A DNA stretch of 38,334 nucleotides, taken from an uncultured Clostridia bacterium. GTDB lineage: Bacteria; Bacillota; Clostridia; TANB77; SIG350. Each line of letters opens with the position of its first letter. Positions within the stretch are counted from its first letter, which is position 1. The notes below the pieces were generated by a model. That model worked only from the letters and a program-made list of their open reading frames with translations, did not search any database and was not told where the DNA came from. The DNA lies in assembly GCA_944393615.1 (NCBI GenBank), contig CALYAQ010000027.1:1-38334 (forward strand), read 5' to 3'. This document shows, piece after piece, positions 2,945 through 15,367 of this stretch. Position numbers and translations under genes: made by a program.

Positions 2945-3892
2945 TTATTCTGTTACTTGATTAGTAGCATTATCTTTGAACATTTCCTCTATCATTTGTT
3001 TAGTTTTGTTTTTATCTAAAATATAGAATGATACATTATCTATTGTTCTTCCTTCTCCTGGCAACGTATTCATTGTTACGTTTTCCATTTTAAATGTTGC
3101 AATATCTTCTAAATAATATAGTATTAAATCTAGTGTTATATCTGTTTTTACATCTTTTAATAATATCCCTGCTATACTAGGCAATTTTATTATATTACTT
3201 GGTTTTAAACATTCTGATATAAATGCTTTAATAAATAGCTGTTGTGTTTGTATTCTTTGTATATCTCCTCCAGGATACCCTGAGCCATCATTATTTTTTC
3301 TAAAACGTACAAAACCTTCAGCTTGTTCTCCGTCTAACTTTTGTATACCTTTTTTAATGTGTATATGCAAATCTTGTACAGGGTCATCATAGTTCATGTT
3401 TATAGGGTTATCTACAGTTACTCCGCCAATAGCATCAACAACCTTCCATAAAGCTTTATGGTCAAATACTAAATACTTATCTATTTGTACATCTAATAAT
3501 GTTTCCACCTTATCTATAATTTTATCTATATGTTTCTTTTGATATACCGCATTTATTTTATAATATGATGTATTTGGTGCATTCAACCCATTATATTTTG
3601 TATCTCTAGGTATTGAAAGTAGCGATACTTTTCCTGTACTAGGGTTATATCGTGCTAACATTATAAAGTCTGATAAGTTTTGGTTCATTCCTAATATTAG
3701 TACATTTATACTTTCTTTTGGTTGTATTTCTTCTTCATTAGGATTATTATTAGGTATATTAATATCTGTTCTTCCTGTATGAGCCATATAAGCAAACCCT
3801 AAAGCTGCACTACTTCCCAATGCAAAAATTATTACAGTAATTGTTACTAATATTATTAATAAAAACCTACCTATTCTTTTTAATATCTCCAT
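2945..3892 (-). CDS. LytR-CpsA-Psr (LCP) family protein
   Basis: 315 residues. There is one N-terminal membrane helix (about 9-32), then an extracellular LCP domain with the family blocks NVLILGMN, MLARYNPSTGKVSLLSIPRDT and GGDIQRIQTQQLFIKA. LCP enzymes transfer undecaprenyl-linked glycopolymers such as teichoic acids or capsule to peptidoglycan at the outer membrane face. Conserved arginines of the pyrophosphate-lipid pocket are present (IPRDT, VRFRKN, RIQTQQ). It sits between cvpA-like and rsfS genes with 20-base gaps. The glycopolymer it handles cannot be told from sequence. Confidence 0.92.
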   Translation of the reverse strand: MEILKRIGRFLLIILVTITVIIFALGSSAALGFAYMAHTGRTDINIPNNNPNEEEIQPKESINVLILGMNQNLSDFIMLARYNPSTGKVSLLSIPRDTKYNGLNAPNTSYYKINAVYQKKHIDKIIDKVETLLDVQIDKYLVFDHKALWKVVDAIGGVTVDNPINMNYDDPVQDLHIHIKKGIQKLDGEQAEGFVRFRKNNDGSGYPGGDIQRIQTQQLFIKAFISECLKPSNIIKLPSIAGILLKDVKTDITLDLILYYLEDIATFKMENVTMNTLPGEGRTIDNVSFYILDKNKTKQMIEEMFKDNATNQVTE

Positions 3893-5773: not shown

Positions 5774-5805
5774 TGACATAAGAAAAAAGGGAATAGAAAA
5801 AAGAT

Positions 5806-5837
5806 AAAATCTTAAATTTAGATAAATTTAAGATTTT
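5806..5837 (-). terminator. Terminator of the Ig-repeat surface protein gene
   Basis: Perfect inverted repeat AAAATCTTAAATTT / AAATTTAAGATTTT with a 4-base loop, eight bases downstream of the stop codon at 5845. The stem is almost all A-T, ending in a T-run on the minus strand. Confidence 0.75.
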
Positions 5838-5844
5838 AAAGAAA

Positions 5845-7692
5845 TTAGTTTCCTATTACTATTGTAGAACCATTCATATATGCTGGGCAAGTAGATTTTA
5901 GACACACTACTGGACGAAGACCGCACTTGGCCCAGTTATAGGTGCCATACCCGTTTTGGGTACCGTCATTACCGACGACACACACACCAGTCGCATAATT
6001 CGCAGAATTCACATAACCAGAAGACGGAGAGGCCAACCAGTAAAAGACACCTGTTACGTATAGTGTCCCACTAAAATCTCCTGGGTCATTATATCCTATT
6101 GCATTTGCTGTTATAGTTAAACTAGTTCCTGTCTTCGCTTTATAACTCTCTACTAACATTTCCATCGTTGGTGCTCCTATTACATCTTGTATATATGTTT
6201 CTAATTCATTTCCTGTCTTATATGTTGCATTCCATACTGTTGTATCTAACAATTGTATTGTTGCTTTATAATTATTATTTGTTGTCGTTACTTTATCAAA
6301 TTCTGCTGATAACCCAAACCACTTTTTCGCATTACTTATTATTCCACTTGCATTATCTCCTGAATATAGTGATAATGTTGTCCCACCCGTTTGCGTACTT
6401 GGTACAATGTAATAGTACATTTGCCCATCTACCTCTTGATGATATAACAACTGCCATGTTGTAAAACCATTTGCACTATATCCTGTTACTGTTGTTCCAT
6501 AATTACTTGTCGTTAAATTTAGGTCTGCTAATGTTGTCGCCTCTATTGTGACATCTTTACTAACTGATATATTACTATTATTTACATTATCCATACACGT
6601 TCCGCCTGATATTGCTATTGTTTGCGTACCTACACTTGCATTCGTTACTACTATTGTATATTCTCTGTCATTTACTTTTGTAAATTCTCCTTTTGTTCCA
6701 TTTGTTACTGTTATATCCTCTGCTGTAAACCCTGTTACATTTTCATTAAATTGTATTGTATATATTATCGTACTTAGATTTGTTGGTCTTGTCTTATTAC
6801 TTGTAATTGTTGCACTTGGTGCTACTCTATCTATTGTTATTGATACTGTATTTGATGCACTATTATTATTTCCTGCTTCATCTGTACATGCTCCTGCTAC
6901 TATGTTTACCGTTTGTGTATCATTTTGACTTGCACTTGTTGTAACTGTTAATATATAATTTGATCCACTTCCACTTAATGTTTCTTTAGTTCCATTTATT
7001 ATCGTTATATCTTCTATTGTAAAGTCAATTACTGGTTCACTAAATGTTATCGTATATGTTATTGTACTTGCATTTGTTGGACTTTGAGTGTCACTTGTTA
7101 TTCTTACTGTTGGGCTTTGACTATCCACTACTATATTTCCACCTTGTGTTACTTTTATTGTATTACTTACTACTGTTCCTTCTTCATTTATTAACCTTAC
7201 CATTATTCCACTTTCGTCAGTTACAGTTACAGCTTGGTTATATGTGTTCCATGTTGTTCCATTATCTATTGTATATTGCAATGTATACCCATTACTTGTT
7301 AATTCTGTTTGTACTGTTAACACGCTATTTTCATACGTTATTGTTGCATATTCTTCTAATGGTATTTCCATTATTTCATATAGCCATATCTCTATACCTT
7401 GTGCTGTTGTTAACTTTAATACATTATTATCAAATGTTCCATGTTCTTCGATTATTGGTATTATTTCTTCCATAGTTATTTTATATATTCCTTGATTTAC
7501 ATTACTTAACCTTTGTGTTTGTATTTTTGTTTGGACATCTTCTATTATTACTTTTTTGTTATAGTCATTTACTGTACTATTTGTATTATCAAATATGTTA
7601 TTATTCATTGTTGACAATATTATTGTTCCTGTTAATATTACAAGCACCACTATTGTTATTACTAACGCCACTAAACTAATTCCTTTTTTCAT
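5845..7692 (-). CDS. Pilin-like, Ig-repeat surface protein with C-terminal lectin-like variable domain
   Basis: 615 residues. The N-terminus MKKGISLVALVITIVVLVIL is a short basic leader plus a hydrophobic helix, like type IV pilin or pseudopilin proteins but without the classical G/FTLIE site. Two bacterial Ig-like repeats follow (about 193-290 and 291-385), each starting near ATITS/VRITSDT and ending in TVSITID-type strands. The C-terminal about 220 residues end in FYWLASPSS (from residue 550) and GLRPVVCL (near 591-598). This resembles the DUF6273/C-type-lectin domain of clostridial retroelement-diversified proteins. It is probably surface-exposed. It stands alone between ftsZ and the leuS operon, with its own terminator. 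RBS is AGAGGTAGATACAATG. Confidence 0.7.
   Translation of the reverse strand: MKKGISLVALVITIVVLVILTGTIILSTMNNNIFDNTNSTVNDYNKKVIIEDVQTKIQTQRLSNVNQGIYKITMEEIIPIIEEHGTFDNNVLKLTTAQGIEIWLYEIMEIPLEEYATITYENSVLTVQTELTSNGYTLQYTIDNGTTWNTYNQAVTVTDESGIMVRLINEEGTVVSNTIKVTQGGNIVVDSQSPTVRITSDTQSPTNASTITYTITFSEPVIDFTIEDITIINGTKETLSGSGSNYILTVTTSASQNDTQTVNIVAGACTDEAGNNNSASNTVSITIDRVAPSATITSNKTRPTNLSTIIYTIQFNENVTGFTAEDITVTNGTKGEFTKVNDREYTIVVTNASVGTQTIAISGGTCMDNVNNSNISVSKDVTIEATTLADLNLTTSNYGTTVTGYSANGFTTWQLLYHQEVDGQMYYYIVPSTQTGGTTLSLYSGDNASGIISNAKKWFGLSAEFDKVTTTNNNYKATIQLLDTTVWNATYKTGNELETYIQDVIGAPTMEMLVESYKAKTGTSLTITANAIGYNDPGDFSGTLYVTGVFYWLASPSSGYVNSANYATGVCVVGNDGTQNGYGTYNWAKCGLRPVVCLKSTCPAYMNGSTIVIGN
5905..6045 (-). 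other. Candidate diversity-generating-retroelement variable region
   Basis: This stretch, encoding about residues 550-597 of the surface protein, is clearly richer in G+C and has different codon use from the AT-rich rest of the gene. Its product runs YWLASPSSGYVNSANYAT and on to CGLRPVVCL. YWLAS...RPVVSL-type segments with many Asn/Tyr/Ser/Gly positions are typical of retroelement-mutated C-type-lectin folds. No template repeat or reverse transcriptase is visible in this window, so this is inference from composition and family likeness. Confidence 0.45.
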
Positions 7693-15155: not shown

Positions 15156-15232
15156 GCGCCTTTAGCTCAGTTGGTTAGAGCATCCGGCTCATAACCGGCA
15201 GGTCCGGAGTTCGAGTCTCTGAAGGCGCACCA
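15156..15232 (+). tRNA. tRNA-Met (CAT)
   Basis: 77 bases with encoded CCA. The acceptor stem GCGCCTT pairs with AAGGCGC, the D arm is TAGCTCAGTTGGTTAGAGC, the anticodon arm is CCGG-CTCATAA-CCGG (CAT at 15190-15192), and the T loop is TTCGAGT. The acceptor stem is fully paired and the gene is not flanked by initiator-type GGG pairs in the anticodon stem, so it is an elongator Met, or an Ile tRNA modified at C34. It is five bases upstream of tRNA-Tyr and shares its promoter. Confidence 0.93.
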
Positions 15233-15237
15233 TTTAT

Positions 15238-15323
15238 GGGTAGGTGGCCGAGTGGCTAAAGGCGGCAGACTGTAAATCTGCTCTCTTCGGGGTACGATGG
15301 TTCGAATCCATCCCTGCCCACCA
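15238..15323 (+). tRNA. tRNA-Tyr (GTA), prophage integration target
   Basis: 86 bases, class II with a long variable arm, CCA encoded. The acceptor stem GGGTAGG pairs with CCTGCCC, and the anticodon arm GCAGA-CTGTAAA-TCTGC gives GTA at 15272-15274. The gene is intact because the prophage end supplies an identical 3' half from the anticodon loop on. The displaced original 3' half is at 36752-36806. Confidence 0.97.
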
Positions 15324-15367
15324 GTCTTGTGAATACTGATATATAGGTATTTGCAAGACTTTTTTAT
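15269..15367. repeat. attL (tRNA-Tyr 3' half plus terminator)
   Basis: Direct repeat of 36752-36850. It is perfect over 77 bp (15269-15345) and continues to 15367 with one mismatch at 15346. It starts at the anticodon stem and covers the tRNA 3' end and its terminator, so integration keeps both tRNA and terminator functional. Confidence 0.95.
15323..15365 (+). terminator. tRNA-Met/Tyr operon terminator (within attL)
   Basis: AGTCTTGTGAATAC (15323-15336) pairs with GTATTTGCAAGACT (15347-15360), 14 bp including two G-U pairs, followed by a T-run. The first base of the stem is the A of the encoded CCA. Confidence 0.9.

Follow-up and report, generated by a model that had tools for sequence, protein, structure and literature searches.

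A GC-rich segment in a gene of an uncultured gut Clostridia bacterium most probably represents a variable region (VR) of the type written by diversity-generating retroelements (DGRs), carried by a prepilin-like adhesin whose retroelement machinery is absent from the assembly, having either been lost (leaving an orphan) or serving the gene in trans. An orphaned target left after loss of the DGR core is considered the most likely case, somewhat above a target served in trans. The whole stretch of DNA analyzed, termed the window, comprises 38,334 nucleotides, and the features of the gene are listed in Table 1.

The gene and its GC-rich segment

The segment first reported (positions 5905-6045) corresponds to codons 550-596 of a 615-aa minus-strand gene, and its reading as YWLAS...LRPVVCL (YWLASPSSGYVNSANYATGVCVVGNDGTQNGYGTYNWAKCGLRPVVCLK) was correct. 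The preliminary description had called it GC-rich and codon-atypical, and both properties were borne out. Its GC content is 0.504, compared to 0.297 for the whole window, making it the richest protein-coding stretch and the second among non-overlapping 141-nt windows; the sole richer one (15184-15324) is a tRNA-Met/tRNA-Tyr pair. Only one of the 44 VR codons ends in A, where 19.4 would be expected for the same amino acids from the usage of the gene itself and 15.2 from that of 11 host genes, while 22 of the 44 end in G or C against 7.4 and 8.2 expected, respectively. For both counts the p value was at most 5e-5, which is the floor of the simulation. Since the expectations use the same amino acids, the atypical codons are not due to amino-acid content. 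The 22 codons 3' of the VR show normal usage, and a depletion of A-ending codons equal to that of the VR was found in none of the others among 884 sliding 44-codon windows. The tRNA pair (15156-15323) lies beside a prophage-like block (15837-36692) which, judged from reading frames, encodes amidase, tail, tape-measure, capsid and portal-like proteins, a repressor and an integrase.

The 615-aa protein begins with a prepilin-like hydrophobic N-terminus, recognised from the sequence itself (KKGISLVALVITIVVLVILTG, MKKGISLVALVITIVVLVILTG). A profile search placed two stretches of bacterial Ig-like repeats behind it (Big_12, E 9.5e-25), and these lead to a C-terminal DUF6273-like domain which contains the variable segment; the DUF6273 match itself was weak (E 0.0022) and below the cut-off. 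The VR thus sits at the C-terminal end of a multi-domain protein, with 22 codons left to the stop. The protein probably serves as a surface adhesin held by its prepilin-like N-terminus, and we infer both its surface display and a binding role for its variable C-terminal face. Directly past the stop codon is an inverted repeat which is read as an ordinary terminator; a DGR cruciform found no support, as the repeat is AT-rich and unrelated sequence follows the stop codon in two paralogs (C24 and C94).

Table 1. Location of the target gene, its parts and the adjoining repeat in the window.
Feature	Position	Strand	Basis or remark
Target gene, 615 aa	5845..7692	-	ORF
Best Big_12 Ig-like stretch, residues 190-287	6832..7125	-	Profile search
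C-terminal domain, about residues 388-615	5848..6531	-	Eleven places in own genome and in relatives
Variable region (VR), codons 550-593	5914..6045	-	GC-rich; third-position A avoided, 1/44 codons
5' constant boundary TACTGGTTGGCCTCTCCGTC (YWLASPS)	6023..6042	-	Exact or with 2 mismatches in four paralogs
3' constant boundary GGTCTTCGTCCAGTA (GLRPV)	5908..5922	-	Same place as the VR end (GLRP/GVRP) in DGRs of the order
3' tail, 78 nt to stop	5845..5922	-	Mosaic joint; 95% identity to C24, 92% to C94
Inverted repeat, perfect, 16 bp, AT-rich	5805..5838	.	Directly past the stop codon

The C-terminal domain had been described as a C-type lectin. The structural model of the window's own domain was poor (pLDDT 44), and that of a close homologue (L068) reached a pLDDT of 95. 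Most of the top PDB matches of the latter were C-type-lectin-like but none was significant (best E 0.55; Legionella Lcl TMt 0.44), so that the fold is plausible for the window protein, based on the modelled homologue, and not established. The homologue model matched models of phage DUF6273/DUF1566 proteins with E about 2e-3, and no match was obtained when the domain sequence was searched against solved structures. In the DGR catalogue, VR domains as a rule have C-type-lectin folds (PMC8144416).

DGRs in the family and order

A complete DGR is present in G002, which represents the one further genus sampled from the family; target, MutS_I-domain protein, Avd (NF033474, E 1.8e-10), template and reverse transcriptase (RT; motif GNMTSQ) lie in a row there (G002:C1, L057 9275-12763). 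The template is rich in Asn codons, and the cis VR differs from it at 27 of 46 adenines; among the 110 other bases only 2 differ, and these lie at the 3' edge. A second contig carries two further VR-like copies (28-30 differences at adenines and 17-18 elsewhere), which means that remote targets exist in this family. The likeness to the window gene includes the same kind of prepilin-like N-terminus, a variable C-terminal domain ending GLRPVV, a template and a VR that are GC-rich against an AT-rich genome, and the extra VR-like copies on another contig. In contrast, the cassette of G002 is complete (RT, Avd, template and MutS-domain-I protein), whereas the window's assembly contains none of these, and the two target sequences are similar only remotely. 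The MutS domain I protein of G002 (PF01624, E 6e-9; L057 10960-11400) is a stand-alone protein, encoded between the target gene and Avd.

An RT of the G002 type was matched in 144 of 290 genomes of the order (E<=1e-10). In ten template/VR pairs mismatches occurred at 155 of 331 adenines and at 4 of 659 other bases, i.e. 155 of the 159 mismatches were at adenines. GC contents were 0.39-0.52 for the templates, 0.53-0.60 for the VRs and 0.24-0.31 for the loci, and A-ending codons made up 0-9% in templates and VRs. A GC-rich sequence poor in A-ending codons is therefore how DGR VRs of this order look.

In the preferred reading, a reverse transcriptase would in the past have copied an AAC/AAT-rich template RNA while misreading its adenines, and the mutated copy would have replaced the stretch of the window gene between the borders YWLASPS and GLRPVV. 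Codon positions 1 and 2 would have been randomised and the non-adenine third positions (T, C, G) of the template kept, which would explain the GC-rich, A-ending-poor codons between constant borders. The C-terminus would then display a variable ligand-binding face. Subsequently the DGR core would have been lost, or it may sit in a cassette missing from the draft.

Paralogs, codon positions and recombination

The draft genome (1.60 Mb in 160 contigs, 97% complete) encodes the C-terminal domain at eleven places. Four paralogs (the window gene, C24, C86 and C94) have the 5' border TAYTGGTTGGCYTCTCCGTC and the 3' border (GGK)CTTCGTCC in common, and between these borders the sequence is GC-rich and differs in content and length. 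A-ending codons numbered 2 of 31 in the VR of C24, 1 of 31 in C94 and none of 31 in C86. At the corresponding place codon usage is normal or close to normal in C14, C76 and C151 and intermediate in C91 and C21, as might be expected if rewritten stretches drift back over time. The differing VR lengths among the four paralogs count against the DGR reading, as a single template cannot produce them. A zinc-ribbon-like insert (CPRC...CPNC) occupies the VR place in C151 (L026 3-599) and C21 (L046), and is moderately GC-rich in C21, not in C151.

Several templates from other genera read WLASPS...LMNVNYNGNV...GVRP, which is the framework of C24, C86 and C94. When alignments to a template of a different genus left adenines free, template third positions were kept at 17/23 in C24 and 19/22 in C86, compared to 6/26 in C14 and 7/24 in C91. 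The window VR aligned best with L110 among the sampled templates, with many codon gaps and a score of 18.2 (codon-shuffle null 4.0 +/- 3.2), a null that homologues without the codon signature also exceed.

Between C24 and C86, differences at codon positions 1, 2 and 3 numbered 10, 9 and 3 in 26 VR codons and 16, 13 and 21 in 169 flanking codons. The third-position rate was therefore alike inside and outside the VR (3/26 and 21/169), and positions 1 and 2 together differed at 19/52 inside and 29/338 outside. A comparable pattern was found in a relative (G291, L065 versus L068), with rates in the VR of 0.56 at positions 1 and 2 and 0.12 at position 3, as against 0.12 and 0.19, respectively, in the flanks; a Fisher p of 1.2e-3 was obtained in these codon-position comparisons. 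When the window VR was compared to C24, C86 and C94, mismatches were saturated at all three positions. Of the marks expected of adenine-derived variability, the window VR itself shows the codon composition, and close paralogs and a relative show the positional pattern.

Positive selection also raises differences at positions 1 and 2, not at position 3. The positional pattern alone would consequently fit such selection. In this rival explanation a ligand-binding loop underwent ordinary diversification by selection and its GC-rich stretch came from a donor of higher GC, and the lack of a demonstrable template for the window VR speaks in its favour. The explanation is nevertheless quite improbable: several differing VRs, here and in relatives, have the borders of true templates from AT-rich relatives and avoid A-ending codons as these do, and a donor would need to supply each of them separately. 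Taken together with the loss of A-ending codons, the positional pattern points to a DGR. For the window copy, which has no close partner or cognate template, the case for a DGR is made by composition, borders and family membership, and it is on these that we infer that its VR was itself written by one.

Exchange between paralogs probably acts in addition. Over its final 78 nt the window gene is nearly the same as C24 and C94 (Table 1), and the upstream domain is far more diverged; in the VR flanks overall, 63-69 of 160 codons differ from C24 per codon position. C86 is 90% identical to C24 up to the VR and then carries a different tail. Such mosaics, together with the varying VR lengths and a truncated copy of the domain on C34 that lacks a full gene, would be expected if cassettes with constant borders were exchanged between paralogs and the diversity arose by recombination rather than by reverse transcription. 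As the sole source of diversity recombination is unlikely, because it moves existing variants, and neither creates differences at positions 1 and 2 while leaving third positions conserved nor removes A-ending codons from a sharply bounded stretch. For DGR targets in general, recombination within the gene has been put forward (PMC8144416).

The truncated copy on C34 (L043 1583-1768) was considered as a silent template and rejected, since its codons are ordinary and not Asn-rich. The same contig carries the start of a prepilin-like gene (3437-3787) which runs off the contig end.

Search for the machinery

Neither a template nor a reverse transcriptase was found in a search of the window, in agreement with the preliminary description. 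The machinery which that description supposed to act in trans was not located in the assembly either: of the three parts of a complete DGR (DGR RT, template and Avd) the draft contains none. No template repeat was detected by DNA and pattern searches of the 160 contigs, no DGR RT by profile search or by match to the G002 RT, and no bAvd match was obtained in the draft genome. Of the two RTs identified, one belongs to a group II intron and the other is of AbiP2 type; a weak RVT_1 match on C56 (E 0.04) was rejected, as no RT reading frame exists there. The proposal that the segment is a DGR substrate stands with respect to position, boundaries and composition, which match the VRs of relatives, and to the homologous prepilin-like proteins of the same family and order, which are DGR targets; action in trans gained no support. 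The absence of template, DGR RT and Avd from the assembly also counts against a DGR origin, and A-specificity of the window VR is putative.

Outside the assembly, a protein search with the window VR through 388 genomes of the order yielded VR-like homologues and no cognate template. Two DNA patterns and a protein-profile scan applied to viral contigs gave chance matches or none, and phage and plasmid records yielded no protein with the domain. Matching DGR RTs were lacking in the congener (G001) and in the relatives G290 and G291; the two nearest named relatives, draft genomes from sheep rectum, likewise lacked one.

The absence of the machinery is weak evidence, because at least five of the eleven paralogs (C24, C94, C14, C151 and C141) are cut by a contig end, and a core cassette next to a paralog could be missing where the draft breaks at this gene family. 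One sub-case of the preferred explanation is therefore that the machinery is present rather than lost, and that the VR is still rewritten by a core (template, RT and Avd) on an unassembled contig or mobile element. In its favour, DGR cores adjoin this gene family, an RT of this kind occurs in about half of the order, and there is almost no drift back to A-ending codons, implying a VR recently written or still maintained. A 97% complete assembly without a trace of RT, Avd or template argues against it, as do the RT-less relatives and the absence of the domain from phage and plasmid records, and continued rewriting is regarded as possible, with the balance tilting away from it. A further variant, in which the VR family is kept and reshuffled without a DGR core of its own, being rewritten only when a mobile element brings one in and recombined in between, to which the mosaic tails would be due, is rather doubtful. 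If true, the codon signature alone would find template-less VRs in any AT-rich genome.

Detached targets, whether orphaned or remotely served, are an already known kind. Isolates of Treponema denticola without RT and template retain 2-6 target genes, so that VR-bearing targets (TvpA family) likewise occur in RT-less, template-less isolates, and remote targets are found also in isolates with the core; their VRs lie in C-terminal FGE/C-type-lectin domains (PMC4891356). The T. denticola targets are mostly lipoproteins, whereas the window target is prepilin-like with Ig-like repeats, and cognate templates in sister isolates show A-restricted differences there, while the window VR has no known cognate template. 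The DGR of Bordetella phage BPP-1 (Mtd) resembles the window gene in having a C-terminal VR in a multi-domain surface protein. Unlike it, the window gene has no adjoining RT or template and is host-encoded, outside the window's prophage-like block.

With this gene, a family of prepilin-like adhesins from uncultured gut Clostridia would join the proteins that owe their binding face to reverse transcription; about half of the genomes sampled in the order have such machinery. The VR was recognisable without a template because A-ending codons disappear within sharp bounds from an AT-rich gene, and orphaned or trans-served targets, which RT-first DGR surveys would miss, thereby become searchable in draft genomes.

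Several minor observations were made in the same genome. The draft breaks repeatedly inside this gene family, and DGR cores adjoining such genes may drop from draft genomes. The AbiP2-type RT on C134 (L020 1177-2646; PADLOC, E 2e-177) is a candidate anti-phage defence gene. On C91 an intergenic element of similar sequence (L025 15407-15600 and 13893-14000), with a GTGTGT run close by, seems recurrent near genes of this family, and its recurrence is also suggested on C56 (L021).
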